Assembly: GCF_000203815.1 (NCBI RefSeq)
Contig: NW_004457737.1
Span: 682,001 to 746,000 of the forward strand
Reading direction: 5' to 3'
Length of the DNA stretch: 64,000 bases
DNA from: Cavenderia fasciculata
Lineage: Eukaryota; Evosea; Eumycetozoa; Acytosteliales; Cavenderiaceae
In this document: in pieces, positions 9,950-61,645 of the stretch
Layout: each line of letters begins with the position of its first letter
How positions within the stretch are numbered: the first letter of the stretch is position 1
Notes under the pieces: generated by a model
What the model was told of the DNA's origin: nothing
Database searches by the model: none
What the model saw: the letters and a program-made list of their open reading frames with translations, nothing else
Made by a program: the position numbers and the translations under genes

Positions 9950-12887
9950 TTAATATTCATTATTATTTTGTTGTTGTTGTTGTTGTTGTTGTTGGTAGGT
10001 GTTGATATCTTCTGTACTTGTTATTATATCCATTTCTATTGGGGCTTCTCTATTTGGTGGTCTGTTTGTTGGTGGTCGTTTTATGAATACAATGACTAAC
10101 ACTACTACTATAATAGAGAGTAGTGCAGCCGATAAGACAACAGCGACTATGATAAATGTCCATTGGTCAGATGTCTCTTCAGTACACTCATATGGCAGAT
10201 TGGAGTCATCTCCAAGAATGAGTGCGTTGAAGACGGGATCGAGTTCAACCGATTGAGAGAATCTAGGTATGTGGAATGTGGTTAAAAGGTTGAATTTTCG
10301 ACTTTTCCAGATTTGTTGAGCGACTGGATCATCGTTTGTGAGAAGTGTTACTTTGGATGGAATGATTGTCGAGTTGTCGATAACCATTCTACTTGCTATT
10401 TTACAGTTTAATAGTGTTCTTCCAACTTGAACTCTGGTCCATATAATCTGATCACCACGAGATATATCACTTCTGACTTTTAGCTTACCACACTTGTCAA
10501 ATTCTACTGAATCTGATTGTGTATGGAATATCACCTGTAATGTATTGATCGGTGATGACCATACCCAATTAATGATTTTAACAGTGCACTTGATTGAATT
10601 TGGTGATACTTGAATATCCTCACCTAAAAATGAACTCGTGTTGGTGTCATGGAATTGATTTACACTGACTTGTTATAGTGTGCGTTGATTGAACATTCTT
10701 GCATTAAATACCAATTCACCAGAAGATGTCTTCTCCTCCTCTTGCGTCCACACGAGATTGTCAATTGATAACGTTTTAATAACCGATTTATCGTGATTGA
10801 TTTCACGAATGAATTGTATACCAGTTGTGAAATTGACAATCACACCACTAATCGTTTGGTCTGTTGATAAAAGTGACATGCCGTTATCCCAAACGGTTGT
10901 GTTTAGTAACTGACTACGATTGACCAACTCTGAACAATCCAATAGGGGTTCATGACCACTGTTACATTTGCATGACCCAAACGTGGTATGCAAAATGCCA
11001 TGTGACGAGCAATTGTTAAGACACTCTTTCGCAAGAGATACAACTTTGGTTGTAAGCATTCCACCAACTCCAATTTTAACAGTATAATTTAGATCGGTTG
11101 AATAAGGTTCAACTCTACCCAATGAACAACTAATTTGTTGATAGTTGTTTTCAATAAACATTGGTGATTTACATTGACTTCCTTGAATCGAAATCAAAAC
11201 ATATGAACTATCTTTTCCAAAATGATTACCATTGATTGTAACCTGTGATGCTTGTCCAGGTATAATACTAGTAATATTGTCAATCATCGGTGCATCACTA
11301 AAATGAAATGTAATCAATGGTGCGCAATAATTAACATTTTCAATCTTGGATGACACGGTTCTATCATTAATATTATATAGAATATTATTTGATGGTGTAA
11401 CATTTGAAGTATCATCATTATAATACAATGGAGATGGTGTCCCTTTGAGTGGACCATTATTTCTTGTAAAACTATTATCACTACTGTTGTATGAGACACC
11501 CTGCCAAAATCTAAATTCATGGTAGTCTTTGATATTCAATGATTGACTAAAACATTGATACATTTCTTCAGATTCTATTGCACCAATATATGGAGCATTT
11601 GGTGTTGCTCCCATTTTTACCTTGTCAATCATTACTTGATTGACTGTTTCATATTCTCCACCAAATAGAATGGTTGAATGGAATTGTTTGTCACATACTA
11701 TTGAAAAAAGACTATTGCATTAGAAATCAAACTATAAAATAATAATATTATTCAATCATTTATATATACATACAAATATAAGGTTTATAGGTTTGAGTAT
11801 AAACATCATCAACTGATATTGAAATGGGAAGCAATTTGGTAGTTGTATTAAGAGATGTTTCGAGTTGACAAAAAAATCTGATTTGATGATGCAAACATAA
11901 TATTACATGGAATATTAGATGTTGAAACATTAACAGATACTATATTATTACTGTGTTATCACCAAAGTTATCACCAATCAGTGTAATCAATCCATTAGCA
12001 GTGAATGATGGATAGACAGCTTTGATAAATGGTGGATATGGTTGCCATGCATAGTGTGTTGAGCTGACTCCACTAGCATCTTGAACAGTGACATTATGAA
12101 ATCCATATAGACGTGGAACAGTACAAGTGACTGATGTTTCATTTGTTTGAGTTATTTGACATGATTTTTCAAGTTGTTTGGATGGATTGGAAAAATGTAA
12201 TGTTGATTGTTTGTATGTTGAATTGTGTTAGATTGTTGATTGTTATTGATCCTCCATTTGTACCGATTGATGGAATATATACCTCTGAAATTGGTTGTAT
12301 TTCACATAATGCTGCATAAACTTGATCATTATAACCATTATCATTATTAAAATTCCAAGTCGGTCTTCTGATGTAAATATATTGATCTTTAGCAGCAAGA
12401 GTTAAAGATGGTTCACCTGCATCGAATGGACAATATCCTTTAATAAAACAAAAATAATTAATACAATTAATTTTATAAAGAGTTGATACTATTAAACAGG
12501 CATACCCCAACATTGACCAGTATACATATTAAATAGTGGTTGATTGGTTCCTGGTCCACTTGAATAGGTGTAATTCCCAATACCTCTGATGTCTTTACCA
12601 GAGACCCATGCTGTTGTACTCAAATTGGTTTTAATAAAATCCCATTCTTGTTTTGATTCAATTGTGACAAGATATGATTTAAATGTACTGCTTTTGGAAC
12701 CCTCACATAGGCGAATCGCCTCTGTGATTGAAGGAGTAGCCAAAAATAATCCTTTGTATGTGTGACCATTCCCTCCTTCTGAAGTTGGCCAATCAAATGT
12801 ATTCGGGTCTTTTTCACAATGAATGTAACTAATATTCAACAATAAAAGCATTAAAACAGCTACTACTATTACTATTATATGTGACAT
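9950..12887 (-). pseudogene. Copy A of the lectin/IPT/EGF single-pass receptor gene, broken
   Basis: Exon 1 (12887-12506) encodes a signal peptide (MSHIIVIVVAVLMLLLLNIS) and a C-type-lectin-like domain (KGLFLATPSITEA, SYLVTIESKQEWDFI, WVSGKDIRG). Exon 2 starts at 12437 and exon 3 at 11697. They carry IPT/TIG-type repeats (IGDNFGDN-, VTINGNHFGKDSSYV-type motifs), an EGF-like module (CLNNCSSHGI...CKCNSGHEPLLDC), a TM helix near 10060-10140 and a tail ending in Gln/Asn. Compared with copies B and C the frame is broken at least four times: an extra A near 12190, small insertions near 11880 and 11950, and a stop-creating change near 10660-10690. Dictyostelid Tgr and related adhesion proteins share this plan. 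It is probably non-functional; unrecognised splicing or sequence errors are less likely. Confidence 0.75.
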
Positions 12888-13540
12888 TGTGATGTATTAT
12901 TTTTATCTATTATTATTATTATTATTATCTCTCTCTCTCTTTTACTTTTATGAGTGCCAAACTATACACTTTATCACTCCTTTTAAATGATGTCACTTTT
13001 GGCGACAGTTGGTTGACTAAACATCATTTTGAGTGATTCCCATCCCATCTATTGACCGATCGATGCCAACAATCAATCAATCAAACCCAATTTCTTTGAG
13101 TCCAAAAAAAATGGCAGTCAGCACCACGCCATAGCTGTGCATCGACAGACACAAACCACCGGTCGATATAAACCATTATATTATTTCGGTTGCTTTGGTT
13201 TATGTTGTTTGGCTTTGGGTGTATATATATATATATGTTTGTGTGTGGCGGTGATGATTAGACAGTTGAACTTCCAACGAGAGAGAATGTATGGTCAAGT
13301 TGTTCTTTTGTTTGTTGACATCATAATCTCGCATACATCCTGTCTTCTCTCTTTCTATATGTTGTTGTTGAAGGGAAGGTAGGATCGGCTATTATTATTA
13401 GAATATTATTATTATTGTTGGGGGGTTACGTGTCTTTGATGTTGATATTCCAAGCAAGATTTCTACTTGCAGGTGTTTAATGATATCATTGATTGATCAG
13501 TCACATTGAAGGTTTGTTGTTAAAGACAATGATGGTGATC
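12888..13540 (-). promoter_or_regulatory. Conserved 5' flank of copy A
   Basis: This flank recurs upstream of copies B (about 52545-53060) and C (about 58040-58738, opposite orientation). Shared blocks include the gene-proximal AAAAGTGACATCATTT segment, the GGGATGGGAATCACTCAAAA segment, GACTCAAAGAAATTGG, and a distal part with CAAGCAAGATTTCTA. Conservation outside the coding region shows that whole units were copied, and it probably includes the promoter. Confidence 0.6.
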
Positions 13541-21447: not shown

Positions 21448-23715
21448 ATGTTAATATTAGTTAAAGCAACAACCAATACATTCTCATTAGATGTAGATGC
21501 CAATGATACCATTAGTGTATTGATTACCAAGGTGGCTGATAGAGCATCATTAGAACCATATCAATTCCAATTATTGTTTGCTGGTGAACCTATGGAACCT
21601 ACTGCAACGGTATCATCACATGGCATTAAAAGAGAGTCTACTGTACACTTGAACATCATCAAATATCTTTCATTCGATGTCCAATACGATGGTGAAATCT
21701 ATGAAAATATTCAAATTGCTAATAATGCAGGTGTAACCGTTCGTCAATATAAATCGTATGTTTAGAGTACCAAAAGATTAATCTTTAAAAAGAGACTCAA
21801 CCAACTAATCCATAATCATTATCATTTCTAGTCAAGTAATTGCTCATATTAAAGAAATAAAACCAGAGATTAAATCAAAATATCAATTGGAATTGAAACA
21901 AGGTAATAGTGTTTTACTAGATTCTTCATTGTTACACAAGGTTACAGACAAGAGTACATTGATCCAAGTGATTTACCAAGATACTCCTACACCACCACCC
22001 ATAGCTGCCAACCAACAAGCCCAACAACAACCAACTGAGCCAGAGATTGATAATAGTGAATTTGTTGCTCACTTTATCGAGAATTCAATCTCAAATGATG
22101 TTGAAAGTATGTCATCAATATATATACAAACAAAGACTTTATTTATTAATTATTATTTATTTTTAGTTGTATTTGTATTTGATACAACTGGATCAATGAG
22201 TTCAGTATTAAAAGAAGTACGTACCAAAGTAGTAGAGACTATTACAAGATTGATGAAAGAGATTCCATCGATTAGAATTGGTATTATGGGTCTTGGAGAC
22301 TATTGTGATGGTCTTAATGTACTCAATACTTGTGACTTGACATCTGATATATCAAAGTTGGTTAATTTTGTAAACAAGACTCCATCGACTGGAGGAGGTG
22401 ATGAACCAGAAGCTTACGAATATGCATTACTAAAGGCAAAGGAACTCAGTTGGTCAAAACACACCTCTAAAGCATTGGTTATGATTGGTGACTCTCCCCC
22501 ACATTCTCCTCAATTTACATCACTCAAGATTGATTGGGTTGCCGAGACTGACAACCTCGAAGCCATGGGAGTTAAAATTTATGGTGTAGTTTGTATGCAT
22601 GAAAGACATAGATTCTTTTATCAAACTATCTCTGAACGTACTGGTGGTCTATGTCTTAGTTTTAATAGATTCAATGTAAATATTAATTATATAATAGATA
22701 TTTAATTAATTATATTCTATTTATTAATAATATTATTTATTTCCATATTTAGTTAATTACTGAAATGTTTTTAGCAGTTTGTTTTAGAGAATCATCTGGT
22801 AACAAATTAAAGGAATTTAGAAAGGAGGCAGAGGTTAATGGTGATGCTGAAATGTCAAGAATGTTTGATCAATTGGAAAGACCCAATTATGTAGTGTCAA
22901 CTAAAATGTATGATGATGAGGGTGACCAAGCCAGTAGTTCAACTGCTGCTACTCCAGCAGAAGAAACATCAGGTGCAACTACACCAGAACAAAAGGAACA
23001 AGAACCACCAAAACAAGTCATCAAAAAGAGATTTGGTGTGTTGACCAGCCCTCAATACTTTAGTCATGACTATGGAGGTTCATTCATCAATGTCAAGGGT
23101 AACCTCTTTGTAAATAGTAGCAATCAAAGATATAAATACCTTCAACCAGTTGTTGCCATGGCCATTGGCAATCTCCATATTGGTTTTACTACACTTTCCA
23201 AGGCTGTCATCAAAAGTCATATTCATGGCAGAGCCAAAATATACTTTCACGACTATAGAATGGAACCAGTTGCCACTGCTCCCCAACAACGTTCTATCTA
23301 TATCGCTTGTTATGCCACCAATAATATAGAGTCATTTAACCAATTGGAAAACAGTATTAGAGAAATCAAGAAAATGCATCCAGAGTGCAATATGGTTTTA
23401 GTTGGAATTAAACCAAACACTAAAAAGAAAAATTCTACTACTGATGATATTACATCTAGTACATCTAGTACATCTACAACAACTACTAGTACCACTACTA
23501 CAAGAAGTAGATCAAAATCATTTTTATCATTTGGAAGCAACAAGGATAAATCAAGTTCGGGTTCAGAAGGCACCATTACAAAGGAAATGAGACAAATGTT
23601 GGTTAGAAATTCAGGATTACAAGGTGATATTGAATACTCTATCGATGACTATTCATCTATGGAAACCCAATTGGCAAAGATTTGTAAAAAACTTGGTCAC
23701 AAGTTTGAAAAATAA
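21448..23715 (+). CDS. Ubl-Ubl-VWA protein with a pseudo-GTPase-like C-terminus
   Basis: Exons are 21448-21755, 21832-22106, 22167-22675 and 22753-23715, giving 684 residues. Residues 1-75 are ubiquitin-like (MLILVKATTNTFSLDVDAND, then FQLLFAGEPMEP). Residues about 76-155 form a second beta-grasp-like segment. A VWA domain spans about 195-370, with a MIDAS-type DTTGSMSSV, the STGGGDEPEAYEYAL loop and IGDSPPH. The C-terminal part (about 440-684) shows Ras-fold order: AIGNLHIGFTTLSKAVI in the P-loop place, KIYFHDYR in the G3 place, TNNIESFNQLENSIREIKKM and MVLVGIK, then a Ser/Thr insert. The P-loop Lys and the DxxG motif are absent, so it should not hydrolyse GTP. The Ubl parts suggest a link to ubiquitin or the proteasome, but no function is known to me. 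Confidence 0.82.
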
Positions 23716-36894: not shown

Positions 36895-39309
36895 ATGACA
36901 AAAGGTAAATAACAACAAGATTAAACATCATCGTCACATTAATACTAACTTGTTTGTTGTTCATTGCTATGATGATCTATAGATTTTAGTAAAGCAACTG
37001 ATGGTACTAAAGTCATATCAGACGACCCATGGTTAGAACCATATGCACAGACACTTCAAAGAAGACACTCACATATCGATTACATGGTCAACCAATTTAA
37101 AGAAAAGGAAGGTGGATTAAAGGCATTTGCAGAAGGTTACAAATTCTTTGGTTTCAATATCACAAATGAAGGTGTACATTATCGTGAATGGTTACCATCT
37201 GCTCATGGTGTAACTTTGGTTGGTGATTTTAGTATGTATACAAAAAAAAAGATAAAGAAAGATAAGACAAGATAACGAAGATTAAAAAGAAGAAGTTTTA
37301 CTTTTACAATACAAATACTTATTTATTTATTTTTTTAAATTATTTTTTAATTTTTTAATTTTTAGATGGATGGAATAAAGAAAGTCATCCACTTGAAAGA
37401 GATGAATATGGTAGATGGTATATATTTTTAAAGAATACAGAGGATGGTAAATGTGCCATTCCACACGGCTCCAAGATAAAGATATATGTAAAGTTGCAAA
37501 ACGGTAATTGGGACTACCGTATTCCAGCCTGGATCCATAGAGTCGAGCAAACCAAAGACAATCCAGTGTTTGACGGTGTATTTTGGAACCCAGCTCAAAA
37601 GTATACATTCAAGCACAAGTCACCTGCCCCTCCAGCCGCCGGCTTGCGTATCTATGAGGCTCATGTTGGCATGTCGAGTGAGAACCCAGAGATCTCATCC
37701 TACAAAAAGTTTAGAGAGACCGTGTTACCACAGATCAAAGAGTTGGGTTACAACTGCGTCCAGTTGATGGCTATCATGGAGCACGCCTACTATGCATCGT
37801 TTGGTTACCAAGTCACCAACTTTTTCGCCATTAGCAGTCGTTTTGGTACACCTGAAGAGTTGATGGAGATGATTGATGCTGCCCACGAAATGGGTCTGCT
37901 CGTGTTTTTGGACGTTGTTCACAGTCACGCTTCAAAGAATGTTCTCGACGGTCTCAACCAATTGGATGGTTCCGATCACCACTACTTTCACTCGGGAGGA
38001 CGTGGCAACCACGATGTTTGGGATAGCAGACTATTCAATTACTCCAATTGGGAAGTACTTCGTTTCCTCCTTTCCAATCTCCGTTTCTTTGTAGATAAAT
38101 ATCATTTCGATGGTTTCAGATTCGATGGTGTCACCTCTATGATTTATTATCATCACGGTTTAGCTCCTGCTTGTTCCTATGATGATTATTTTGGTCCTGC
38201 TGTTGATGAAGATGGTTTATATTATTTATCTCTTGTAAGTAGTAAAACAAATATATATATTTATTTATTTATTATTAATTAATTTATTAATTTATTTTCT
38301 ATTTTTATTTTTTAGGCAAATACATTATTAAAAGAATTAAATCCAAATATTATAACAATTGCAGAAGAGGTAACTGGTATGGCATGTCTTTGTCGTCCAA
38401 TTGCAGAGGGAGGATATGGATTTGATTATAGATTGGGTATGGGTATTCCAGACAAATGGATTGAATTGGTAAAGACAAAGGATGAGGAGTGGAGTATGGC
38501 AACCATTTCCCATATGCTTTCAAATCGTCGTTACAAGGAAAGAAACATCTCTTATGCAGAGTCACATGATCAGTCGTTGGTCGGTGACAAGACACTTGCC
38601 TTTTGGTTGATGGACAAGGAGATGTATGATCAAATGTCGACCACCAGTCCCATCACACCCATCATTTCTCGTGGCATGTCACTACACAAGATGATTAGAT
38701 TGATCACATCTGCTCTTGGTGGTGATGGTTATCTCAACTTTATGGGAAATGAATTTGGTCATCCTGAATGGGTTGATTTCCCAAGAGCTGGCAACAATGA
38801 ATCCTATCATCACGCCAGACGTCGTTGGGATTTACACCGTGATAAATTACTTCGTTATCACCAACTTCGTAATTTCGATATTGCAATGAATCAATTGGAA
38901 GATAAAACTAAATGGTTAATTGATTCTCAAGTATGAAAAAAAAAAAGAAAAAAAATATATTTTAAATGATAAATGTATTAATTTATTATTTATTTTCATT
39001 TATTTATTTTTTTAGGCATTTATATCATGTAAACATGAAGATGACAAGGTGATTGTATTTGAAAGAGCAGGACTTATTTTTGTATTCAATTTCCATCCAT
39101 TCAAGAGTTTCTCAGATTATCGTGTTGGTAGTGGCTCGAGTGGCAAGTATGCCAATGTTTTGGATTCAGACAGAGAAGAGTTTGGAGGTTTTTGTCGTAT
39201 CGGAACCACTCCCCATTTCACTGAAGCTGTTCCATGGCATGATCGCACCCATTCACTCAAGGTTTACATTCCATCAAGAACTTGCCTAGTTTTACAAAAA
39301 GTTGATTAA
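36895..39309 (+). CDS. glgB: 1,4-alpha-glucan (glycogen) branching enzyme
   Basis: Exons are 36895-36904, 36983-37231, 37366-38234, 38316-38930 and 39016-39309, giving 678 residues, close to human GBE1 (702). Order: an N-terminal helical segment ([15 protein letters not shown]), a CBM48 domain ([20 protein letters not shown]), a GH13 barrel and a C-terminal all-beta domain. GH13 motifs are clear: [11 protein letters not shown] (region I), [11 protein letters not shown] with the nucleophile Asp (region II), [10 protein letters not shown] with the acid Glu (region III) and the [13 protein letters not shown] region (region IV). It transfers alpha-1,4 chains to make alpha-1,6 branches in cytosolic glycogen, a reserve that dictyostelids use during development. 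Exon 1 is just 10 bases. Confidence 0.95.
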
Positions 39310-40080: not shown

Positions 40081-43000
40081 TTATCTTGGCGATTGTCGTG
40101 GAGAGAATCTATTATTATTATTTGCTTGTTCCTCAATGATTGAAATCATTCTACCGATACGCTCAATCTTGGACATGATTGGTGACAGTTCAGCCATATT
40201 GTTTACCTTTTGAATATTGCTAGACAATTCTTGGAGTTTGGAAATGACAGTGTTGTCACGTTTGCCTGCTGCTGTTGGTAGTTGTTTGCCATCGAGAATT
40301 AATTCATAAAGTACAGTTACTAATTTAATATCTACATCGATTACTCCACTGCCTCTTAATGGAATATTAATTCCATTATTATTATTATTATTATTATTTG
40401 GTTGTTGTTGATTTAATTGTACATGGTTATTGTTGTTGTGGTTGGTGTCATTGTTGTGTAATTTTGTAGTCACAGTATTGATAAAATATATGACTGTAGA
40501 TTCCAATGTTTCTTTGACACTTGAGAGTGGGTCATATAGGGAGTCATGGTCACGAAGACTGTTGGAGATTTGGTCAGATACGTCAGCCAACAACTCGGAA
40601 ATATCATTGCTCTGAGAGAATGAAGCAATGTCCATAAAGTCTAAAAACTTAATAGTCTCTTTTTCAATGGATAGGGTGAGTGCGTACAACTCTTGGAAGG
40701 TTGGGGCATAACCAGACAAAGAGGTTGGCGTCAAGCAGTGCACTTGGTGGTTGCTAAAGAGCTGCACTTGTGGCTTGATGGCGAGTGATGGCTTGTCTTG
40801 TGCACCAGATCCACCCGACATGGTGGCCGACTTTTGCCACTCATTGAATGACAATTGTCTGGTAGCACGCTTCAAGATAGCCAACACACCAGACACGTAT
40901 TTAATGTCAATCGACTCTGCAATACGCTTGACAACGTCGTTCAAACTAGAGAGGATGGATTTGGTCGAAGACTGAGCACTCATACGTAACGAGTTGATAA
41001 GTGTCAATGCTGTAGAATCCTTTTTAACGGTTGGTGCCAAACGGTTTCCATGTGTTAAACTACGGCTCTTACGACGGTTGACTCTATCACGATCAAATGC
41101 AGAGTTTGATGACAATTTCATCATTGGAACTACTTGAGTGGTGGTAGAGGTAGGGTTGGCCGTGACGACTGGAGATGCAGATGGTGAAGGTTGTACCACT
41201 TGGCTGTTGGGAACGGTCAATGGTGATGATAATGGAGTTGTTTGAGTTGAATCCATTGATGGTGATACAGTTGCAGCAACATTTGTAGTAGTTGGTGACA
41301 AAGATGGAGATGTTTCAACTTTGACTTCCTCTGTACGTGGGGTGTTTGGTGAACTAGTAGAACCACCACCACCATTTACTTCTGCTGCTGCTTGTATAGT
41401 TATAGCAGATGGTTCTAAAATAGTAACAACTCTTGGTGTTTGGGGAAGTGAAGAAAAGTGTGGAGACGAGTTGGCAGACGATGATGATTCATTGTTTACA
41501 AGATCGGGTGAAAGTTGGAGAGCGAGTGGAACAACCAGTTGGTCTGAAATACCATAATTTGTTTGATGTTCGAGGGATGGAGACTTGGAGAGAGAGTCCA
41601 GGATAAACTTGGTCTTGTAGGTGACTGGATTCCAACTTTCGGAACGGTACAAACAAATGTAGGATGGTTTCTCGAGTAGATCGAGCAACTCGGTACGCTT
41701 GGTGTGAGTGAGGAATTGGAATAGCCATTTTAGCATTTCGGAACGACTCTTTCCAAAGTCTGTACCAAACTGGGAGAATAGCTTGGGCAATGAGATTTCC
41801 TTCTTTTTCAAACAAATGTCAACCTTGCTTGAACAGAATTCCTCGCCAGCGCGATGGAGATCTTCGACCAACATCTCGGCGAGCATGATACGCAGACATG
41901 GGAGAGTGACGTTGACGGCAAACAAGACAAAGTGGTAGCGGGGGTCGAGTGGGATGACAAACTGTCTACGCTTGTCGCCACTACGGATCTGACGCACACG
42001 CGATAAACTATTCTTGGGGTTGTTACGGAGAACACCATGTTGAATATCGGCCAACGAGTAGAGACATCCAGCAATATTGTACTTGTGCATTTGATAGGAT
42101 TTTCTTCGAATGTCAGAGTTGGGTGGTCCCACTAAAAAGTGAAGATGTAGTACCAATAGATTAAATGCATTGATAAAGAATGCTGCGATATACTCTGGTG
42201 ACATATTGTCAAATGTCACAACTTGCAACTCGCACACATCTCGACCAAACTGAAGGAAATCTGCAGTCTGCTGTGTCAATGCCCAATTCAAAGGTTGTCC
42301 ATTAAACTTTATACTCTGTGCGTCTGACAACTTATTGTTTTTACATATAGTTATCAATGTCTTTAATAATTGTTGTACTACTATATGTGCTGATCTTGGT
42401 TCACTTCTCCATTCACTATCAATATTAATTACCTTCTAAAAAAAGAGAAAATAAAAGATTAATATATTTTTAAAAAAAAGAATAGAATTAGTTATTTTTA
42501 GATTTACATACAACTTCTTCTTCAGATTTGTTTGCAACATTTGAAATAACATTTAAAGTTGGAGTGATGACAGTTTGCTTTGCAATTTTAAGGTTCTTTG
42601 TGAGAGATGACCATTTTGGAATGGTGTTATTGTCAGAGTTGGAACGTTGTTTGTTTTTGAGTTCTTTGACACTGCTGTGGTGACCACCAGCAGAATTGGA
42701 ACGTTGCTTGTTGAGGAGATGGTTGGATGAGATGGGGGGAGCAGAGAGAGCAGCACGTTTGGATGATTCGACCGAGTTGAGGATGGTGTCCCACTTGGCA
42801 GCGGTTTGGGCAATGCTTGACTTGGCAACACTCGACTCGTAGGTACGTTGCACCTTTTCGGGATTCTTGTCAATGAATTGTTGGAGGTAGATGATACCGT
42901 CGTGAAGCGAGTCTTCCGACACCATCATACCGTCAATGGTGTGGTCTTCGGCTGGACGAGCAGCCAGCTTGGTGAAAAACTCATCAAGTGCTTGTACATT

Positions 43001-44818
43001 GTCGGTGATAAAGTCGTTGACGTTTTCCATGTATGGTTGGTTGAATGTGGCTTGGTTGGAGAGATTTTGTAGACATTTGGCGACGAGTACAAGTGCACGA
43101 CGCTCGGTGATACCTACACGGCCAGCCGACACGATGCCGGCATTCTCTGGCGACACGCAGGCCGGACAAAATAGACGCAAAAAGACAAAGCCGCCAACAG
43201 CCGCCTTCCAGTGATTGGGGAATTTGCGAGAGACGATCTTTTTAAAGTAAAAGCATACCTCGGCGATACTCTTGGGACACTGGTCAATCGACGCGACAAT
43301 ACGATCGAAAAACTTTTGCGAGACGATACGCAGGTTGCGCTGGTTGGTCTCGGCGTCCTCGCCGGGTGGCAGTTTGATGGGGTCGACCTCGAGTGGTAGC
43401 GGAGAGTTGCACAACTCGACTACGAGTGGTGTCAACGTCTGCTGTAAATAGTGTTGTGCAGTCTTGTGTCCATACGCAACCACCATCTTCATAGCCACCG
43501 AGTTGGACCGGAACAAAGTACCCGGGTCATGACACGCAGCCACCTCCTTTTTCAAAAATGATTTTAACAAGTGCAAGAGTTTGTGGTGACTGTGAAAGAC
43601 GTCGACCAATGACTTGGCGATCATCTGCGCGGCCGTGATATCGACAGAGTCACACATGGCATGTACCAACGACAACTTGGGTGTGATCAAGTGGTCGAGC
43701 ATCTCCTTGTGTGTGGCTTTCAAACGGATCAAGTATGGCAAGTTGGTAACCTCGTACGATATTTGTAGTTGGATCTCTGGATCGTCGCTAGTGTATGATG
43801 ACTCGTCGTCAATGAGGTTGGTAAATGATGACATTGATGTAGATGGTGCAATGGTTGGTGTGACTGGTGTAGATGCAGAGTTGGAACCGGTCACAGTCAA
43901 CTTGTACCACTTTAACGAACTCTCGATACGTCCATTATCGAGATCGGTCTGCTCACTATTATTGATGGTCGCAAGTGTAGGCGACGAAGTAGAGTTTGAC
44001 GCAAATATGGGGATGGGGTTGGCCTGGATACGCTGGCCATTCTGGTACGACACAAATGGTGGTGAGTCCATACCCGATGGTGACGATGGCACCGACAACG
44101 AGTATGGTGGTGGCATGGCCATCCCATACAATTGCGGTGACCCCGATAATCCAGGTGTACCATTACTATGTGCACCAACCGACGATGACGATGCTGCCGA
44201 GTTGGTTGATGATGAAAGTGTATTATTATTATTATTATTATTACTGCTATTATTACTATTGTTGATTGGAATTGGTACACTCGTCGATGAAGTACCAATC
44301 ATAATGGGTGAAGGTGGAAACACGCTGTTTCCACTCTGGCTCAATGTCTTTGGTGATTGTCTAGGTGATGGAGGTGGTGATGCTGATGAAGTGGTTGATG
44401 CGTCCAATATCGGTGATGAGTTTGGTTGATTTTGATTTACAATGGATAAAGAGTTATATGATGATCGTCTAGGTAGACTGATTGGGATTGAAGAGTATTG
44501 TAGTACGACACTTGTCTTGGCGAGTGCGGCCGGTCCGTCCACGACCGATCCATCCGACGATGTCTTGCCGAGCTTGTGGCCACTCTTTTGCTTCAAAAAG
44601 GTAATGTCAAACTTGTTGGACACGATCGGCATCTGAAACACCAACGAGTTCTTTTGCAGACCGTGATCGGATTTGGGACGGCGCAAGACCACGTCGATCG
44701 GATGGTAGTCGTTGCCATCGACGTGGACCGTGCACACCAATGCCCCATCTGTGCCATTCAGAACCTTTGTATTCTTTGCATTTATAATCTTGATAAAGAG
44801 TAATTGTGGTCCATCCAT
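40081..44818 (-). CDS. Ras GTPase-activating protein with C2-like and DUF547 domains
   Basis: Exons are 44818-42512 and 42435-40081, giving 1553 residues; the ATG at 44818 is the first in frame. Residues 1-90 look C2-like (PQLLFIKIINAKNTKVLNG). A Ser/Pro/Asn linker follows to about 330. The RasGAP domain spans about 370-680, with the arginine-finger region TLFRSNSVAMKMV, the helix HYLQQTLTPLVVELC and the FLR-type motif FVFLRLFCPACVSPE. Exon 2 opens with a DUF547 domain (about 785-960: FDNMSPEYIAAFFINAFNLL, HKYNIAGCLYSLADIQHGVL, PLDPRYHFVLFAVN). A long disordered linker and a helical C-terminus follow. It should switch off Ras at the membrane. It is preceded by a long spacer. Confidence 0.9.
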
Positions 44819-45883
44819 CGTCAAATAAATATTTGTATATTATATATATATATATGTTGTTTAATAACTCGTAGTTGGTTTGAGTGAGTGAGAGAGTGTG
44901 TTGAAATAAATAATATAAAAATAAAATAAAATAAAATAAATAAAATAAAGGTTTCTAGAAAAAGAGTTTTACAAGTACTCTCTTTTTTGTTTGTGGGTAG
45001 TAATAAATAAATAAATAAATAAATAAATCGATAGATATGGTATAGTATAGTATATGTATGTTGTATGTATAATTATATAATATTCTAAATTGATTGATTG
45101 ATTGTAAGAGGATGAAGGAAGGGATGGAGGGGAGCAAGGAGGAGAGGGGAGGTTAGTCTACTTGTACTTTTTAATCAATTATATTTATATATATATCAAT
45201 CATTTCATTCAATTCATTTACTACTAATGCATGAACAAGCAAAAACAGGTATTGGATTGGTTGGTCAGGTGTGATTAAAGGTGGTGTGTTGTTGTTAATG
45301 TTGATCGACAGACCAACAACAAGAAAAGAGGTCGACATATAGAACAAACAAATGTCGGTAGGCAGATAGATAGGCAAGTAGAGTAAAAGGGTGGGTAAAA
45401 AGCAAAGGTGGGTAAATAGTAAACAACAAAAAAAAGATAGGAGAGGACAACATCAAAGCAAAAGAATAGGTAGGGATAGAGGGATTGTTATTCTCCTCAT
45501 ATCGAGAGGAGTAGATAGGGGGTTAATTTAACTTGAAGAGATTTGAATCGATGAATGGAGGGTGTAGTAATAACAAGAGGAAGAAGCCTCTTGACAAAAA
45601 AAGAAGGTTGACTCTATTAACAACATCCATCCTTGTTATTGTACAATGATGTTTGATGATGATGATGTTGGATGTATGATGTTGGATGTATGATTGACGA
45701 GATTAACATCAAGCAAACGTCGGAGTAGTTAGGGTTGGTGAATGTAATGTAAACACGCACAGGTTGTGTGGGGGTGAAACATCGTTGTGAGTGTGCATGT
45801 TTGTGAATTTGTGGGGGTGGTGGATTGACTTATGACTGATTGACTGATGCATAAAGTCAAAGAGATGGAACTAACTCTATCCC

Positions 45884-45920
<37 letters not shown>

Positions 45921-49796: not shown

Positions 49797-50029
49797 ATAT
49801 CATCTATCGATTATAATACGATGATGATAGACACAATAACAGAATTATTCTGTTTATTACTATTCCAAAAAAAAAAGATAATAAATAGGTAGAATAAGTA
49901 TATTGAGAACCCAATTACATCTTCGAACGGGGTTGGGTTTTAAAAAGAAAAACAATACAGATATATGGTATTAAACATTACTTTAAATTTACATTTATTT
50001 AATATTTATGAATTAATTAATTATTTTGT
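49797..50029. other. Spacer between txndc17 and copy B
   Basis: 233 AT-rich bases carrying the 3' flanks of two convergent units. No other feature is seen. Confidence 0.5.
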
Positions 50030-52545
50030 TGTTGTTGGGTATTGATTTCCTCTGAACTTGTAATTATATGGCAGATTGGAGTCGTCGCCAAGAATGAGTG
50101 CGTTGAAGACGGGATCGAGTTCAACCGATTGAGAGAATCGAGGTATGTGGAACGTGGTTAAAAGGTTGAACTTTTCGACTTTTCCAGATTCTGTTGAGAG
50201 AATGGATCATCGTTGGTGAGAAAGTGTTACTTTGGATGGAATGATTGTCGAGTTGTCTATAACCATTCTACTTGCTATTTTACAGTTTAAAAGTGTCCGT
50301 CCAACTTGAACTCTGGTCCATATAATTTGATCACCACGAGATATATCACTTCTGACTTTTAGCTTACCACACTTGTCAAATTTTACCGAATCTGATTGTG
50401 TATGGAATATCACCTGTAATGTATTGATCGGTGATGACCATACCCAATTAATGATTTTGATTCGATATTTGACTGAATTTGGTGATACTTGAATATCCTC
50501 ACCAAGAAATGAAGTGGTGTTGGTGTCTTGGTATTGACCAACTGTGACTTGTAATTGTGTGCGTTGATTGAACATTCTTGCATTAAATACTGATTCACCG
50601 GCAGATGTCTTCTCTTCCTCTTGCGTCCAAATGAGATTGTCAATTGATATTGTTTTAATGACCGATTTCTCATGATTGATTTCACGAATGAATTGTATAC
50701 CAGTTGTGAAATTAACAATCACACCACTGATCGTTTGATCAGTTGAAAAAAGTGACATGCCGTTATCCCAAACGGTTGTGTTTAGTAACTGACTACGATT
50801 GACCAATGATGAACAATCCAATAGGGGTTCATGACCACTGTTACATTTGCATGTCCCAAACGTGGTATTGCAAATGCCATGTGACGAGCAATTGTTAAGA
50901 CAATCTTTCGCAAGAGATACAACTTTGGTTGTAAGCATTCCACCAACTCCAATTTTAACAGTATAATTTAGATCGGTTGAATAAGGTTCAACACTACCCA
51001 ATGAACAAGTAATTTGTTGATAGTTGTTTTCAATAAACATTGGTGATTTACATTGACTTCCTTGAATGCTTATCAAAACATATGAACTATCTTTTCCAAA
51101 ATGATTACCGTTGATTGTAACCTGTGATGCTTGTCCAGGTATAATACTAGTAATATTGTCAATCATCGGTGCATCTGTTATATTAAATGCAATTAATGGG
51201 GTATAATAACTAATATTTTCGATCTCTGATGGCACTACCATTCTATCATTAATATTATATAGAATATTATTTGGTTGATCCATATTTGAAATATTACCAG
51301 AATAATACAAAGAAGATAGTGATCCTTTGAGTGGACCATTATTTCTTGTAAAGCTATTATTATTACTGTTGTATGAGACACCCTGCCAAAATCTAAATTT
51401 AGGGTAGTCTTTGATATTCAATGATCGACTAAAACAATGATACATTTCTTGTGATTCTATTGCACCAATATATGGAGCATTTGGTGTTGCTCCCATTTTT
51501 ACCTTGTCAATCATTACTTGATTGACTGTTTCATAGTCTCCACCAAATAGAATGGTTGAATAGAATCTATTGGCACATACATACTATTGAAAAAGGGTAT
51601 TGCATTAGAATTATTAGTAATATTATTATTTAATCATTATACATACAAATATAAGGTTTATAGGTTTGAGTATAAACATCATCAACTGATCTTGAAATGG
51701 GAAGTAGTTTGGTACCTTTAGCAAGAGATGATTCGAGTTTACAAAAAATCTGATTTGACGAAACAAAAGTAATATGACATGGTACATTAGATGTTGAGAC
51801 ACTGACAGCTACCGTATTATTGGTGTTATGACCAAAGTTATCACCAATCAGTGTAACCAATCCATTGGCAGTGAATGATGGATAGACAGCTTTGATAAAT
51901 GGTGGATATGGTTGCCATGCATAGTGTGTTGAGTTGACTCCACTAGCATCTTGAACAGTGACATTATGAAATCCAGATAGACGTGGAACAGTACAAGTGA
52001 CTGATGTTCCTTGTTTTGATGTTATTTGACATGATTTTGAGAGTTGTTTGGATGGATTGGAAAATGTAATGTTGATTGTTTGTATGTTGAATTGTGATAG
52101 ATTGTTGATTGTTATTGATCCTCCATTTGTACCTATTGATGGAACATATACTTCTGAGATTGGTTGTATTTCACATATTGCGCCTGCGACATCATTAGCA
52201 CCAACATAAATAAAATTCCAAGTCGGTCCTCTGATGTAAATAAATTGCTCCTCAGGAGTTAAAGATGGTTCACCTGCATCGAATGGACAATATCCTTTAA
52301 TAAAACAAAAATAATTAAACAGACATACCCCAACATTGACCAGAATACATATTAAATAGAGGTTTGATTTGATTGTGGTCCAGTTGAATAGGAATAACTG
52401 CCATTCCCTTCGATGTCTTTACCAGATACCCATATTGTTGTTCGATTGGTATTAATAAAATCCCATTCTTGTTTTGAATCAATTGTGGGCAAGATATGAT
52501 CTAAATGTACTGTTTCCGAACTTATAAACTACTATTAAATGTGAC
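50030..52545 (-). pseudogene. Copy B of the lectin/IPT/EGF receptor gene, truncated and broken
   Basis: The longest intact part (about 51514-50207) encodes the IPT region (IIPGQASQVTINGNHFGKDS), the EGF-like module with its Cys intact (CLNNCSSHGICNTTFGTCKC) and the membrane-proximal region. The TM helix is missing: TGCCATAT of the ectodomain runs straight into AATTACAAG of the tail (minus-strand sense, near 50065-50075), a loss of roughly 170 bases relative to copies A and C. At the 5' end about 170 bases are lost (near 52505-52530), removing the signal peptide and half the lectin domain. More small frame changes occur near 50205, 51580 and 52350. It cannot make the parental protein. Confidence 0.78.
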
Positions 52546-53234: not shown

Positions 53235-55249
53235 ATGGAAGACGATGGAGATGTAATGATACATGATATCGATAATGACACTAGTAGTACATCAACAACA
53301 ACAAAGAAAGATAGCAATGAAAATGACAATGACAATAATGATGTAGTCATTGTTGAAAGAGATAATAATAATAATAAACCAACTACAGATACTAGTACCA
53401 GTACAACAACTACAACTACAACATCACAACCAAAGACACCAAGACGAATAAAAGAAGATGATGAGGATGACGTTACAATAGTAGATAACATCGAGTTGGG
53501 CGGCGGCGGTGGCGGTGGTGAACATCAACATCCTCAACATTTAAACTTACAATCACCTGCATCACCAAGATCATTGAGTAATGATGACATTATAGAATAT
53601 TCAACCAAGTCACTTGTATCTTTACTACTTGTTAATTGTATAACAAAAGTACAACAATATAAAAAACAACAACAACTAATTAATAATAATAATAACAGCG
53701 CAACAGAGAATGGTGATACAAGTACATTGTCTTCATCATCAAATACAAATACATCAAGTATTGAATGGAATATAGTATATGAATTGTACATTCAACAAGC
53801 CAAATATCTAAATCAAGTGTCACCCTATCATATAAGTGATGGTCAATTACAAATCATTCATTCTTCTACAACCTGTAAACAATATTATACTAAATTGGTA
53901 TCAATCTATAAAGATGAAGAGTAAATATAAATATATATATCAAAGAAACAAACAAAAAGATTAGTTATTAATACAAATATTTAAATATTTTAGAAACTTG
54001 GAATCAATAATAAGGAAATCAATTATTGATAATTTAAAGATATCTATTAATCAATCAACTTTGGATGATATATCGTATGTAATATATAATATATAATAAT
54101 ATTATTATTTGGTTACTTACTTTTGTTTGTTTGTTTACTTTTAGGAAACTTAAAAATGAAATCAAAATATTAAATGAAGAGATTATAACATTGGAAGACG
54201 ATAATGAAAAGGAGAGGGAAAGGGAGAGGGAGAGAGAAAAGGAGACAATGACACCATTCAGTCCACCTCAACAACAAACCAATGTAAATGCAATCAATGT
54301 AGATGATGATGTGACGACATCAACCACTTCAATAACAACAACCAAATCATCGTCGTCAGTACCACCATCACCAATAATAAATAGTGATGTAGATGATGAA
54401 GCTTCTAGAAAAAAGGAAGAGGAGGTTGCACGAGCTAAAAAGGCTGTTATGCAATCACTACAAAAGGTTTGGAAATCAATCAATTCGCACAAGTATTCAG
54501 AGGTGTTTCGTCATCCCATCACTCGAGATGAAGCACCCGACTATGACAGGATTATCAAGCATCGAATGGACCTAACAACACTGAAAAAGAATTTGGACAA
54601 GGACACGATATACCAGACGTGTGCTGATTTTAATGTTGACCTCCAACTAATCTTTTCCAATGCCATGGAGTATAATGAGCAAGGGTCAGAGGTATATAGT
54701 ATGGCACAGACACTTAAAAAGTTTGCAGACAAGGAGATGGAGATTGTTTTGACCACCGAGTTGATGATGTCTAATCCTCAGGGCACTACCACACGTCACC
54801 GTGCAAATACATCGACTCAGTCAACCCCACTTCCATCACCGTCGGTAAGAGGACGCAACAAGACCAAGTCCAAAGAGCCATTATCGCCAGGTTCGAGTAG
54901 CACCCCTAATATGACACCTATCCTAACCGAAGAAAAGGACCTGTTTACAGATGATGGGACTGCATCACCATCCAACAACGCTGCACAGTCACCATCGGCA
55001 TCACCACTCTCATCATCCTCTTCGTCTTCATCTACTACTGGTGGTGGAAAAGAGGAAAAGGACAAAGAGAAAGCCAGCACCAGCACCACAACAACAACAA
55101 CGCCAACAACTAGAAGATCGACTAGACTAAGTAAAGCATCAGCAGCAGCAGCAGCAGCAACTATTCCACAAGAAATGAAAAAGGTTTCAAAGAGACAAAA
55201 AACATCTAAAAGTGAAGAGAAAACTACTTTATCTTCTGATGAAAGTTAA
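53235..55249 (+). CDS. Bromodomain protein resembling NuA4 subunit BRD8
   Basis: Exons are 53235-53920, 53994-54074 and 54145-55249, giving 623 residues. The ATG at 53235 is the first in frame. The N-terminal half is acidic and low complexity, with a helical segment at about 115-225 (SLVSLLLVNCITKVQQYKK, WNIVYELYIQQAKYLNQVSP, CKQYYTKLVSIY) like the SANT-like start of BRD8. A coiled coil follows (KLKNEIKILNEEIITLEDDN). The bromodomain is at about 350-455: VWKSINSHKYSEVFRHPI, the ZA loop DEAPDYDRIIKHRMDLTTLK, FSNAMEYNEQGSEVY with the acetyl-lysine-binding Asn in YNE. A Ser/Thr-rich basic tail follows. Human BRD8 sits in the NuA4/TIP60 acetyltransferase complex; the same is likely here. Confidence 0.85.
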
Positions 55250-56470: not shown

Positions 56471-57769
56471 ATGAAATTAGCTATCTTTTCAAACAAAGGT
56501 TATTGGGTTGATCATTTTAACAAGGTCAAGATTCCATGTGAACATCAATTCTTTGACTCCAAGTTAAACAAGGAGACTGTATGTCATACTAGTGCAAGCA
56601 GCTGCCACAAACTAATACTATTACTATTTTTAATTAACTTTGTATTTTTTTAATCTTTTATTTTATTTCAAATAATAGGCAATGGTAGCAAAGGGATATG
56701 ATGCAGTTTGTATCTTTGTCAATGACATTATTTGTTCTGAAACATTGACCATTCTCAAAGAAGGAGGTACCAAATTGATTTTATTGCGTTGTGCCGGTTT
56801 CAACAATGTCGACCTGGAAGCTGCCAAGAAATGTGGTATCACTTGTCTAAGAGTTCCAAGATACTCTCCAAACGCTGTAGCTGAATATGCTGCTGCTCTC
56901 ATGATGACTTTAAATAGAAAGATTCATAAAGCTTATAATAGAGGTAAAACAAACCAACAAACAAACAAACAAATCAAAAAGATATAATATTAATATTATT
57001 TAATTAATTTAATATTATAATAGTAAGAGAAGGTAATTTCTCATTAGAATCACTTGAAGGATTTGATTTCTTTGGAAAGACTGTTGGAGTATTTGGTACT
57101 GGAAAGATTGGTGAATTGCTTTGTAATATTCTTGTTGGTTTTGGTTGCAAGATCATTGCCTATGACGTCGTTGAAAATGAAGCTTGTAAAAAGATTGGTG
57201 TTAAATACATGTCTCAAGAAGAAGTATTTAGACAATCTGATATCATTTCTCTTCATACTCCATTATTAAAGGATACTGTAAATATATTAAAAAACAAACA
57301 AATACAAATAATAATAATTATAATTCCCCAAGTTAAACAAATAATTAATATTAATTCTTTTTTCTATTTTTCTATTTTCTAGAAACATATGATTAATGAT
57401 AAAACCATTTCATTAATGAAAGATGGAGTCATGTTGATTAATACGTCAAGAGGTGCATTGATTGATACCAAGGCAGTGATCAATGGATTAAAGTCGAAAA
57501 AGATTGGGTATTTGGGAATCGATGTCTATGAGAATGAAGGAGGTCTCTACTTTGACGACAATAGCGGTCAAATCATGATGGACGATACATTGGCTCGTTT
57601 GATGACCTTCCCCAACGTTCTCATCACTGGTCACCAGGCTTGGTTCACTCAACAGGCCCTCGACGCCATCTGCCAGGTCACCATGAAAAACCTTAATGAT
57701 TTTAAGAATGGTACCATTGACAAGGGTAATCTTGTTGAATATGAACCATCTGGTTGTGCTGCCAAATAA
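56471..57769 (+). CDS. ldhA: D-lactate dehydrogenase (NAD-dependent 2-hydroxyacid dehydrogenase)
   Basis: Exons are 56471-56578, 56679-56943, 57024-57277 and 57383-57769, giving 337 residues, the normal length of the family. The catalytic-domain start [16 protein letters not shown] is followed by [19 protein letters not shown], with the substrate-binding RCAGFNNVD motif. The Rossmann segment has [20 protein letters not shown] (GxGxxG). Catalytic residues are Arg in [10 protein letters not shown], Glu in [10 protein letters not shown] and His in LITGHQAW. It reduces pyruvate to D-lactate with NADH in the cytosol. All joins are in phase, so it should be functional. Confidence 0.94.
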
Positions 57770-57926: not shown

Positions 57927-57959
<33 letters not shown>

Positions 57960-58039
57960 ACATGGCTATAGTAAAATGATTAAAATTTTAAAATAATTCT
58001 CAGACTACACCTATCCTCATTCTACGTCTTCTCATCAAT
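57770..58039. other. ldhA 3' flank with a (CAA)n tract
   Basis: AT-rich 3' flank holding an (ACA)n repeat at about 57928-57957. The copy C unit seems to begin just after it. No gene is seen. Confidence 0.45.
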
Positions 58040-58738
58040 GATATTGAGACATCAAACCTTCAATGTGACTGATTGATCAATCATTGAACCCCAAAAGGAG
58101 ACAACAGCAACAAAGACATCAATCAATGATTTCATTAAACACCTACAAATAGAAATCTTGCTTGGAGTATCAACATCACAGACACGACCAAACCCCCCAA
58201 CAACCTACAATAATAATAATAATAATAGCCGATCATTTCAACAACCACAACAACAATATATATATATAGAGAGAGAGAGGATAGGATGTAGGCGAGATTA
58301 TGATGTCAACAAACAAAAGAACAACTTGACCATCACATTCTCTCTCGTTGGTAGTTCAACTGTCTAATCATGACCACCACCAACACACAAACATATATAT
58401 ATATACCCAAAGCCAAAGCAACATAAACCAAACAACCGAAATAATATAGTAATTTATATCGATCAGTCGGTGGTATGTGTCTGTCGATGCACAGCTATGG
58501 CGTGGGCTGACTGCCATTTTTGACTCAAAGAAATTGGCTTTGGTTGATTGATTGATTGATCGATCGATTGTTGGCATCGATCGGTCAATAGATGGGATGG
58601 GAATCACTCAAAATGATGTTTAGTCAACCAACTGTCGCCAAAAGTGACATCATTTAAAAGGAGTGATAAAGTGTATAGTTTGTCATTCATAAAGTAAAAG
58701 AGAGAGATAATAATAATAGATAAATAATACATCACAAT
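58040..58738 (+). promoter_or_regulatory. Conserved 5' flank of copy C
   Basis: It is the reverse-orientation equivalent of 12888-13540 and 52546-53060. It extends farther than in B: the CCTTCAATGTGACTGATTGAT block (about 58058-58078) and the AGAAATCTTGCTTGGAGTATC block are shared with copy A. The gene-proximal part (about 58600-58735) matches both other copies closely. Confidence 0.6.
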
Positions 58739-61645
58739 ATGTCACATTTAATAGTAATAGTAACAGCTGCTTTAATGCTTTTATTGTTGAATATTACTTC
58801 CATTCATTGTGAAAAAGACCCGAATACATTTGATTGGCCAACTTCAGAAGGAGGGAATGGTCACACATACAAAGGATTACTTTTGGCTACTCCTTCAATC
58901 AAAGAGGTGATTCACCTATGTGAAAGTGCCAAAAGCAGTACATTTAAATCGTATGTTGTCACACTTGAATCAAAACAAGAATGGGATTTTATTAAAACCC
59001 ATTGGTTACAACCAATGATATGGGTCTCTGGTAAAGACATCAGAGGCAATGGGAATTATTCCTATTCAAGTGGACCAGGAACCAATCAACCACTATTTAA
59101 TATGTATACTGGTCAATGTTGGGGTATGTCTATTTAATAGTATCTATCAACTCTTTATAAAATTAATTGTATTAATTATTTTTATTTTTATTATAGGATA
59201 TTGTCCATTCCAAGCAGGTGAACCATCTTTAACTCCTGCTGAAGATCAATATATTTACATCAGAAGACCGACTTGGAATTTTAATAATGATGATGGTTAT
59301 AATGATCAAGTTTATGCAGCAATATGAATTAGAACCAATTTCAGAGGTATATGTTCCATCAATCGGTACAAATGGAGGATCAATAACAATCAACAATCTA
59401 TCACAATTCAACATACAAACAATCAACATTACATTTTCCAACCCATCCAAACAACTCTCAAAATCATGTCAAATAACATCAAAACAAGGAACATCAGTCA
59501 CTTGTACTGTTCCACGTCTATCTGGATTTCATAATGTCACTGTTCAAGATGCTAGTGGAGTCAACTCAACACACTATGCATGGCAACCATATCCACCATT
59601 TATCAAAGCTGTCTATCCATCATTCACTGCCAATGGATTGGTTACACTGATTGGTGATAACTTTGGTGATAACAGTAATAATATAGTATCTGTTAATGTT
59701 TCAACATCTAATATTACTTGTAATATTATGTCTGTATCATCAAATCAGATTTTTTGTAAACTCGTATCATCTCTTAATGCAACTACCAAACTACTTCCCA
59801 TTTCAATTTCAATTGATGATGTTTATACCCGAACCCATAAACCCTATATTTGTATGTATATATAAATGATTAAATAATATTATTATTTTATAGTTTGTGA
59901 TTTAATTCTAATGCAATACTCTATTTTCAATATAGTCTGTGCCAATAGATTCCATTCAACCATTCTATTTGGTGGAGAATACGAAAAAGTCAATGGATTG
60001 ATGATTGGCAACATCAAAATTGGTGCAACTCCAAATGCTCCATATATTGGTGCAATAGAATCACAAGAAATGTATCATTGTTTGAATCGATCATTGAATA
60101 TCATTGACTACCCTGACTTTAGATTTTGGCAAGGTGTATCATACAACAGTAATAATAACAGTTTTACAAGAAATAATGGCCCTTTCAAAGGGACACCATC
60201 TCAATACTTCAAATGTTACACCATCAAATAATATTCTATATGATATTTATGGTGGGACGATTTCATCCGACATTGAAAATGTTAGCTATTGCACACCATT
60301 AATTGCATTTAATATAACCGATTCACCGATGATTGACAATATACTAGTATCATACCTGGACAAGCATCACAGGTTACAATCAACGGTAATCATTTTGGAA
60401 AAGATAGTTCATATGTTTTGATAAGCATTCAAGGAAGTCAATGTAAATCACCAATGTTTATTGAAAACAACTATCAACAAATTACTTGTTCATTGGGTAG
60501 TGTTGAACCTTATTCAACCGATCTAAATTATACTGTTAAAATTGGAGTTGGTGGAATGCTTACAACCAAAGTTGTATCTCTTGCAAAAGAGTGTCTTAAC
60601 AATTGCTCGGCACATGGCATTTGCAACCAAACATTTGGGACATGCAAATGTAACAGTGGTCATGAACCCCTATTGGATTGTTCATCATTGGTCAATCGTA
60701 GTCAGTTACTAAACACAACCGTTTGGGATAACGGCATGTCACTTTTTTCAACTGATCAAACGATCAGTGGTGTGATTGTTAATTTCACAACTGGCATACA
60801 ATTCATTCGTGAAATCAATCACGATAAATCAATAATTAAAACAATATCCATAGATAATGTCGTGTGGACGCAAGAGGAGGAGAAGACATCAGCCGGTGAC
60901 TTGGTATTTAATGCAAGAATGTTCAATCAACGCACAATTACAAGTCACAGTTGGTCAATACCAAGACACCAACACCACTTCATTTCTTGGTGAGGATATT
61001 CAAGTATCACCAAATTCAGTCAAATATCGAATCAAAATCACCAATTGGGTATGGTCATCACCGATCAATACATTACAGGTGATATTCCACACACAATCAG
61101 ATTCGGTAGAATTTGACAAGTGTGGTAAGCTAAAAGTCAGAAGTGATATATCTCGTGGTGATCAGATTATATGGACCAGAGTTCAAGTTGGACGGACACT
61201 TTTAAACTGTAAAATAGCAAGTAGAATGGTTATAGACAACTCGACAATCATTCCATCCAAAGTAACACTTCTCACAAACGATGATCCAATCTCTCAACAA
61301 ATCTGGAAAAATCGAAAATTCAACCTTTTAACCACGTTCCACATACCTCGATTCTCTCAATCGGTTGAACTCGATCCCGTCTTCAACGCACTCATTCTTG
61401 GCGATGACTCCAATCTGCCATATGAGTGCACTGAAGAGACATCTGACCGATGGACATTTATCATAGTCGCTGTTGTCTTATCGGCTGCACTACTCTCTAT
61501 CATAGTAGTAGTGTTAGTCATTGTATTCATAAAGCGACCACCAACAAACAGACCACCAAATAGAGAAGCCCCCATAGAAATGGATATAATTACAAGTTCA
61601 GAGGAAATCAATACCCAACAACAACAAAATAATAATGTATATTAG
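58739..61645 (+). pseudogene. Copy C of the lectin/IPT/EGF receptor gene, broken
   Basis: Exon 1 (58739-59123) encodes a signal peptide (MSHLIVIVTAALMLLLLNIT) and a C-type-lectin-like domain. Exon 2 (59197-59851) and exon 3 (59936 onward) carry IPT repeats (LVTLIGDNFGDNSNNIV), the EGF module (CLNNCSAHGICNQTFGTCKC), a TM helix (WTFIIVAVVLSAALLSIIVV) and the tail EEINTQQQQNNNVY. Compared with copies A and B the frame breaks at about 59330 (two bases lost), 60200 (about 19 bases lost), 60345 (one base) and 60938 (two bases). The C-terminal part from 60950 on is open and nearly identical to copy A. It is the most complete copy, with all domains present, but cannot be read through. Confidence 0.77.

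Follow-up and report, generated by a model that had tools for sequence, protein, structure and literature searches.

In a window of 64,000 nt from Cavenderia fasciculata (the whole stretch analysed: positions 682001-746000 of contig C1 in a 21-contig genome of 30,995,898 bases; window A+T 65.5%), we describe three related genes, designated copies A, B and C, which are recent pseudogenes of an already catalogued receptor family; for the window itself, this is an ordinary result. The family is probably one of dictyostelid single-pass surface glycoproteins whose intact members most likely serve in adhesion or recognition. As read from sequence, its long form has a signal peptide, a C-type-lectin-like domain (the head), IPT blocks, an EGF-like module, a ComC-type domain (the stalk), a transmembrane (TM) helix and a Gln/Asn (glutamine/asparagine) tail. 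Comparison of the copies established the size of the family, its exon plan, the lesions, five intact members, a stalk that is constrained relative to a faster head and X (a domain between the second and third IPT blocks), and a first IPT block (IPT1) of low synonymous divergence (dS) between clades.

Three broken copies in the window

The longest stretches shared by copies A (minus strand), B (minus) and C (plus) were 90.4-90.8% identical in pairwise blastn comparisons, with E values of 0, and DNA comparison found upstream DNA common to them as well, which together exclude a chance likeness. The upstream DNA of copy C recurs as main blocks of approximately 330-630 bp (83-92% identity) in seven other copies of what we call the recent clade that keep their 5' end; this clade comprises ten loci, namely the three window copies, L011 and six more, and nine of the ten are broken. 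Intact and broken copies of the clade both carry the shared upstream DNA, and other family members have short pieces of 51-101 bp at most. An earlier note on this DNA had placed three related copies at these positions and on these strands, correctly. The receptor plan that it proposed for all three (signal peptide, lectin-like domain, IPT, EGF-like module, TM helix and Gln/Asn tail) can be read piecewise in A and C and holds in the intact relatives, but the window copies are broken and encode no intact receptor. Absent from it were two introns, the ComC-type domain between the EGF-like module and the TM helix, and a fourth, 130-bp fragment of the family (Table 1).

None of the three copies was open throughout in a three-frame reading. 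Lesions were placed, in amino acid (aa) positions, by frameshift- and intron-aware alignment to the intact paralogue L011. Copy A has frameshifts at aa 211 (+1), 290 (+2) and 315 (+1) and a nonsense codon at aa 690, a change of TTA to TAA; copy C has four frameshifts, at aa 173 (-2), 438 (-2), 490 (-1) and 689 (-2). Copy B has lost the bulk of exon 1, including the signal peptide and the start of the lectin domain, and its TM segment; six frameshifts and one stop were called in it, with frameshifts at aa 74, 117, 800, 811 and 815, and the calls at aa 348 and 351 may be an intron artefact (altered intron end). Since the lesions differ among the copies, their decay looks independent. Were the window copies functional, the frameshifts would have to be errors of sequencing or assembly, and some could be: judged by eye, two of the three in copy A (in runs of T) and one of the four in copy C are one-base differences in short runs. 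However, neither the stop nor the +2 shift of copy A resembles a run-length error, copy C has 2-base losses and copy B large deletions, and five relatives are open over 664-975 codons in the same assembly, which speaks against a high error rate. We regard functional copies in the window as very improbable.

The family in the genome and the domains of its intact members

A search of the 31.0 Mb genome with the DNA of copy C gave 62 matches, grouped by script into 35 places and, after two tandem runs were split and two pieces on contig C7 joined by hand, into approximately 38; distant relatives seen by protein search alone (90 exon-level matches) are excluded from this number. Twenty-nine of the 38 places lie within 1.1 Mb (C1:209,000-1,316,000). 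The alignment to L011 comprised 28 distinct copies, the ten remaining places being short DNA matches that were left out of it. Within the aligned span, no frameshift or stop was called in five copies (L011, L020, L029, L022 and L026), and each of the other 23 was called frameshifted at one or more positions. Some of the stop calls (aa 127-133 and 347-348, in L012, L014, L023 and L024) come from introns read through in the alignment, and these loci have frameshift calls besides. It should be noted, as a point against so high a proportion of pseudogenes, that the count of 23 may be a little inflated by sequencing errors in single-base runs and by aligner errors in diverged copies.

All five intact copies are open from the ATG to the stop codon, and their two introns, both GT-AG, occupy matching places. 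Each copy has a single TM-like stretch close to the C-terminus and carries 15-22 N-glycosylation sequons. Their N-termini are hydrophobic, with no stretch above threshold in L029. The long forms, of 905-975 aa, are L011 (922 aa), L020 and L029; the short ones, L022 and L026 (664-666 aa), close with a TM-like stretch shortly after IPT3. Pfam did not find ComC_SSD in either short form; among four short-form or truncated loci, a ComC-type remnant downstream of the stop was seen, weakly, at L022 only, and this relic suggests that the short form arose by loss of the 3' part. Older relatives were also encountered at L069 (C8:368181-369293), whose introns are both at corresponding places as far as read, and at C8:371851-372967. 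Another relative, at approximately 51% identity (C7:1466371-1468981), has the exon 2/3 region in a single open frame of 929 residues, as if the intron had been lost.

Assignment of the head (aa 26-178 in L011) as a C-type-lectin-like domain has fair sequence support. A profile of 12 heads matched 63 sequences among PDB chains at E values up to 1 (best whole-chain E 5.6e-5, best single-domain E 0.0016). Of the 60 matches listed, 59 carry names that we take to denote C-type-lectin-like proteins, and the remaining one is a designed protein. Lectin_C was matched by eight of the 12 single heads at E values up to 1 (best 6.1e-6), and the older relative L069 (match at C8:368259), 34% identical to the family in exon 1, scored 28.2 bits, above the Pfam cut-off; it is the sole place in the genome with Lectin_C at an E value up to 0.001. 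The head of L011 itself reached 19.5 bits, under the cut-off of 22.6. The joined exon 1/2 piece of copy C gave no family in a Pfam scan, and was matched by the profile and relative-by-relative searches. C-type lectins bind sugars in a calcium-dependent manner through an EPN or QPD motif together with WND. At the expected place, EPN or QPD was found in none of the 12 heads, in all of which the tripeptide ends in PS, and WND was absent from all 12. Sugar binding is thus without motif support; this, and a Lectin_C match of only E 0.13 for the short form L026 taken alone, count against our reading of the family.

The remaining parts are assigned with differing clarity. TIG scored 59.4 bits in L011 (curated cut-off 20.9; two stretches), 52.0 bits in L022 (three stretches) and 46.7 bits in L026, and was above cut-off also in pieces of copies A and B, so that the IPT/TIG membership of the family is clear; three IPT-type blocks flank X, which has no family assignment. 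The EGF-like module stayed below its cut-off (EGF_2, 18.8 against 22.1 bits; E 0.0021), with a visible cysteine pattern. The stalk matched ComC_SSD in six of six members (best E 9.6e-7), and profile-profile comparison (hhalign) gave a probability of 98.1 and an E value of 8e-14, which points to homology with the ComC supersandwich domain. Two results weigh against this assignment: the stalk of L011 scanned alone scored 23.3 bits, just under the 24-bit cut-off, and ComC_SSD was unlisted in the scan of whole L011. The stalk had no match in PDB at E values up to 1.

The ComC-type repertoire of the genome is far larger than the lectin/IPT family studied here. At least 150 ComC_SSD loci were counted (150 of 282 candidates were scored, all those listed being above the cut-off), with tandem runs at C17:384297-443961 (open frames of approximately 300-340 aa) and C14:2087753-2112078 (approximately 460-580 aa).

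Features of the window and the five intact genes are collected in Table 1. In 20 other reading frames of the window, Pfam (E up to 0.01) found no domain of transposon type to which the duplications might be ascribed.

Table 1. Family copies, intact relatives and neighbouring genes (window positions, or contig positions where prefixed C1)
Feature	Position	Strand	Remarks
Copy A, upstream stretch common to the recent clade	12911..13476	minus	86% identity to copy C upstream
Copy A, exon 1: signal peptide, first two thirds of C-type-lectin-like domain	12506..12887	minus	open frame
Copy A, intron 1	12438-12505	minus	GT-AG
Copy A, exon 2: lectin-like end, two IPT-type blocks	11774..12437	minus	frameshifts near 12192, 11954, 11877
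Copy A, exon 3: X, IPT3, EGF-like, ComC-type, TM, Gln/Asn tail	9950..11697	minus	nonsense codon 10675
Copy B, exon 1 remnant (signal peptide and lectin start deleted)	52329..52514	minus	frameshifts near 52490, 52366
Copy B, exon 2: lectin-like end, two IPT-type blocks	51647..52294	minus	one open frame; end by eye
Copy B, exon 3: X, IPT3, EGF-like, ComC-type; TM deleted	50021..51583	minus	ends by eye, approximate
Copy B, exon 3 frameshifts	near 50224, 50190, 50177	minus	frameshift-aware alignment
Copy C, upstream stretch	58139..58738	plus	shared blocks at 83-92%
Copy C, exon 1: signal peptide, first two thirds of lectin-like domain	58739..59123	plus	open frame
Copy C, introns	59124-59196 and 59852-59935	plus	
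Copy C, exon 2	59197..59851	plus	2-base loss near 59325
Copy C, exon 3: X, IPT3, EGF-like, ComC-type, TM, Gln/Asn tail	59936..61645	plus	frameshifts near 60202, 60341, 60937
Fourth small family fragment, head end/IPT1 region	4155..4284	minus	69% over 130 bp, E 7e-12; 83% over 66 bp
L011, intact long form	C1:571857-574759		alignment reference
L020 and L029, other two intact long forms	C1:349020-351863, C1:341967-345036		
L022 and L026, intact short forms	C1:591935-594085, C1:530595-532720		
Ribosomal protein L3	1865-2938		neighbour; Pfam
VWA domain	21887-22702		neighbour; Pfam
Alpha-amylase	37494-38279		neighbour; Pfam
DUF547	40084-42357		neighbour; Pfam
RasGAP	42491-44824		neighbour; Pfam
Bromodomain	54131-55246		neighbour; Pfam
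2-hydroxyacid dehydrogenase	57389-57766		neighbour; Pfam
Protein kinase	62580-63275		neighbour; Pfam

Divergence of the single domains

Within the recent clade, nonsynonymous divergence (dN) was highest in the head (0.18) and X (0.13) and low in the stalk (0.05), at similar dS for head (0.28) and stalk (0.30). The head had a dN/dS of 0.64 (interval 0.47-0.87), compared with 0.18 (0.13-0.25) for the stalk. Low ratios were found in the stalk only, and in the EGF-like module with a wide interval. X (0.53), IPT1 (0.56) and IPT2 (0.46) were not distinct from the head; what the ratio sets apart is the stalk and not the head. The first third of the head gave 0.89 (0.59-1.40) and the signal peptide 1.19 (0.55-3.73). 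A search for positive selection in the head gave no evidence of it, the upper limit of the ratio being 0.87. Three further points leave such selection without support: the ratio of the head nowhere exceeded 1, the broken state of nine of the ten recent-clade loci inflates dN/dS, and in the five intact copies the ratios of head (0.50; 0.37-0.63) and stalk (0.32; 0.23-0.43, from the three long forms) overlap. For these reasons, diversifying selection on the head is unsupported.

Between the recent clade and the twelve other loci, dS came to 0.18 (0.12-0.24) in IPT1 and 0.33 in IPT2, while the head stood at 0.53 and the stalk at 0.99 (0.83-1.21); for intact copies alone, it was 0.13 in IPT1 and 0.81 in the stalk. 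Fourfold sites showed the same dip in IPT1 and a second, short one at the end of exon 1, in a profile that counts one locus twice (L021 = L028). Exact runs of at least 60 bp shared between the two copy groups fell into IPT1/IPT2 in 23 of 24 cases, counted per copy pair and hence not independent. The best reading of the low synonymous divergence of IPT1 is gene conversion in exon 2. Constraint on protein or codons might keep IPT1 alike between the clades without any conversion, and for this speak a stronger base bias at its fourfold sites (A 0.66; heterozygosity 0.51 vs 0.67 in the stalk), the only marginal rejection of the stalk tree by IPT1+2 data (p-AU, the p value of the approximately unbiased test, 0.052) and the fact that the recent clade holds together in IPT1+2. 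However, synonymous change falls along with replacement change (between-clade IPT1 dN/dS of 0.55), the base bias looks too small for a fivefold drop in dS, and an older paralogue is 37% identical in IPT1, where the head has 31%, IPT2 42% and IPT3 41%, so that IPT1 is not specially conserved. We consider constraint rather unlikely as the explanation, and gene conversion remains our preferred one.

The trees of the single domains conflict, with p-AU below 0.01 in 11 of 12 cross-comparisons and 0.052 in the twelfth. The cross-domain differences were 26-259 log units, the smallest being that of the stalk tree on IPT1+2 data. In a control comparing odd with even codons within a domain (half the data each), differences ranged from 1 to 23 log units and p-AU fell as low as 0.018; most of the cross-comparisons lie beyond this control, but the twelfth does not rise distinctly above it. 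Conflict also exists between the halves of a single domain (11-62 log units), which fits fine mosaics or a misfit of the model. An exchange of heads between clades was suggested by the tree of the C-type-lectin-like domain, in which L012, L013 and L014 stand outside the group L009-L011; this suggestion was dropped, as forcing the stalk clade on the same data cost only 2.6 log units (p-AU 0.20). This result also bears on a more far-reaching reading, in which IPT1 (exon 2) would be a recombination joint that keeps the copies pairable, heads and tails would be exchanged around it, and the broken copies would form a reservoir of variants for the intact receptors. The concentration of shared runs in IPT1/IPT2 and the strong conflict of the domain trees argue for such a joint. 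Against it stands the non-significant test of head exchange itself, and in no case was sequence seen to have passed from a broken copy into an intact one; we hold this reading to be distinctly improbable.

Possible roles and comparison with known systems

Adhesion or recognition is a plausible function of the intact members, and the following scheme would accommodate it. The proteins would sit on the surface of the amoeba, where the variable head, perhaps with X, may contact a ligand carried by another cell or by a bacterium; the ComC-type supersandwich stalk would keep the head away from the membrane. Turnover of the family by duplication, decay and gene conversion probably produced the pseudogenes of the window. 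Two narrower functions deserve consideration. The proteins might be phagocytic receptors for prey, the lectin-like head binding bacterial surface sugars during feeding; the presence of such a head fits this, as does the view, in an excerpt of PMC5758549, that D. discoideum has lectin-like receptors and that few phagocytic receptors are known. The lack of EPN or QPD in all 12 heads, the IPT modules common to Tgr adhesion proteins and the stalk common to ComC-type proteins argue against it, and we see in it a doubtful candidate. Alternatively, they may be allorecognition proteins working like TgrB1/TgrC1, with the pseudogenes as by-products of local instability. The pattern described for tgr genes in the excerpted text of PMC12324515 (many copies, many pseudogenes, recombination within genes and dN/dS below 1) is alike; the Tgr features given there include neither a ComC-type stalk nor a lectin-like head, and this proposal, too, seems to us somewhat unlikely. 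A general role in adhesion or recognition is the reading we retain.

Seen against these results, the earlier note's idea of a larger recognition repertoire stood in part. Intact relatives exist (five of 28), the lectin-like head is variable, pseudogenes are many, and the genome and domain searches returned both relatives and the lectin-like and IPT domains, but the window copies themselves are broken. A likeness to Tgr proteins in the strict sense was not borne out, the membrane-proximal domain being ComC-type: no Tgr-named Pfam domain was found in L011, L022 or L026, and one piece matched Ig_TgrO1 at an E value of 0.47, which is not significant. The suggestion of carbohydrate binding by the head found no backing in its motifs, and 'species-specific' was too strong, because the corresponding orthologue group is listed in four dictyostelids.

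That group is OG5_153020, the dictyostelid proteins with IPT/TIG, EGF-like and C-type lectin domains, and judged by architecture our family is the one already catalogued in print under this name. In Table 2 of PMC4334915, D. fasciculatum is credited with 50 members, A. subglobosum with 43, P. pallidum with 35 and D. discoideum with nine. The three domain labels are those of the intact long members, although L011 itself stays below cut-off with both the EGF-like and the lectin model. The table gives counts only, and pseudogenes, short forms and homogenised blocks are not mentioned in that part of PMC4334915. Among the titles and abstract openings listed by literature searches, none dealt with pseudogenes or gene conversion in the lectin/IPT/EGF family. 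To the known family our analysis adds the identity of its intact genes, a stalk of ComC type, the existence of short forms, the absence of the sugar motif and the homogenised IPT1. Next to the Tgr proteins, the family is a candidate for another receptor set with a role in recognition or adhesion in a dictyostelid. Its five intact members (three long, two short) make a small testable set against approximately 38 mostly broken places, and a homogenised IPT1 between faster-changing parts makes a concrete prediction for population data.

With animal C-type lectins (mannose receptor 2, CEL-I and others), the family head shares profile similarity over approximately 75 residues and invariant first and last cysteines; unlike them, it lacks EPN/QPD at the expected place and WND. 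With ComC and other ComC_SSD proteins it shares a homologous membrane-proximal domain, and EGF domains are listed for ComC in the excerpted part of PMC4931340, which also counts comC among the genes essential for development whose conservation is limited; the family differs in its lectin-like head and in a stalk just under the Pfam cut-off. For the Tgr family, including TgrB1/TgrC1, excerpts of PMC12324515 name neither such a head nor a ComC-type stalk. Shared with it, according to these excerpts, are IPT/TIG repeats, a transmembrane segment, many copies and pseudogenes, and recombination among copies. The same excerpts, which refer to D. discoideum AX4, report recombination within tgr genes and dN/dS below 1, and speculate that decayed tgr neighbours feed the working locus.

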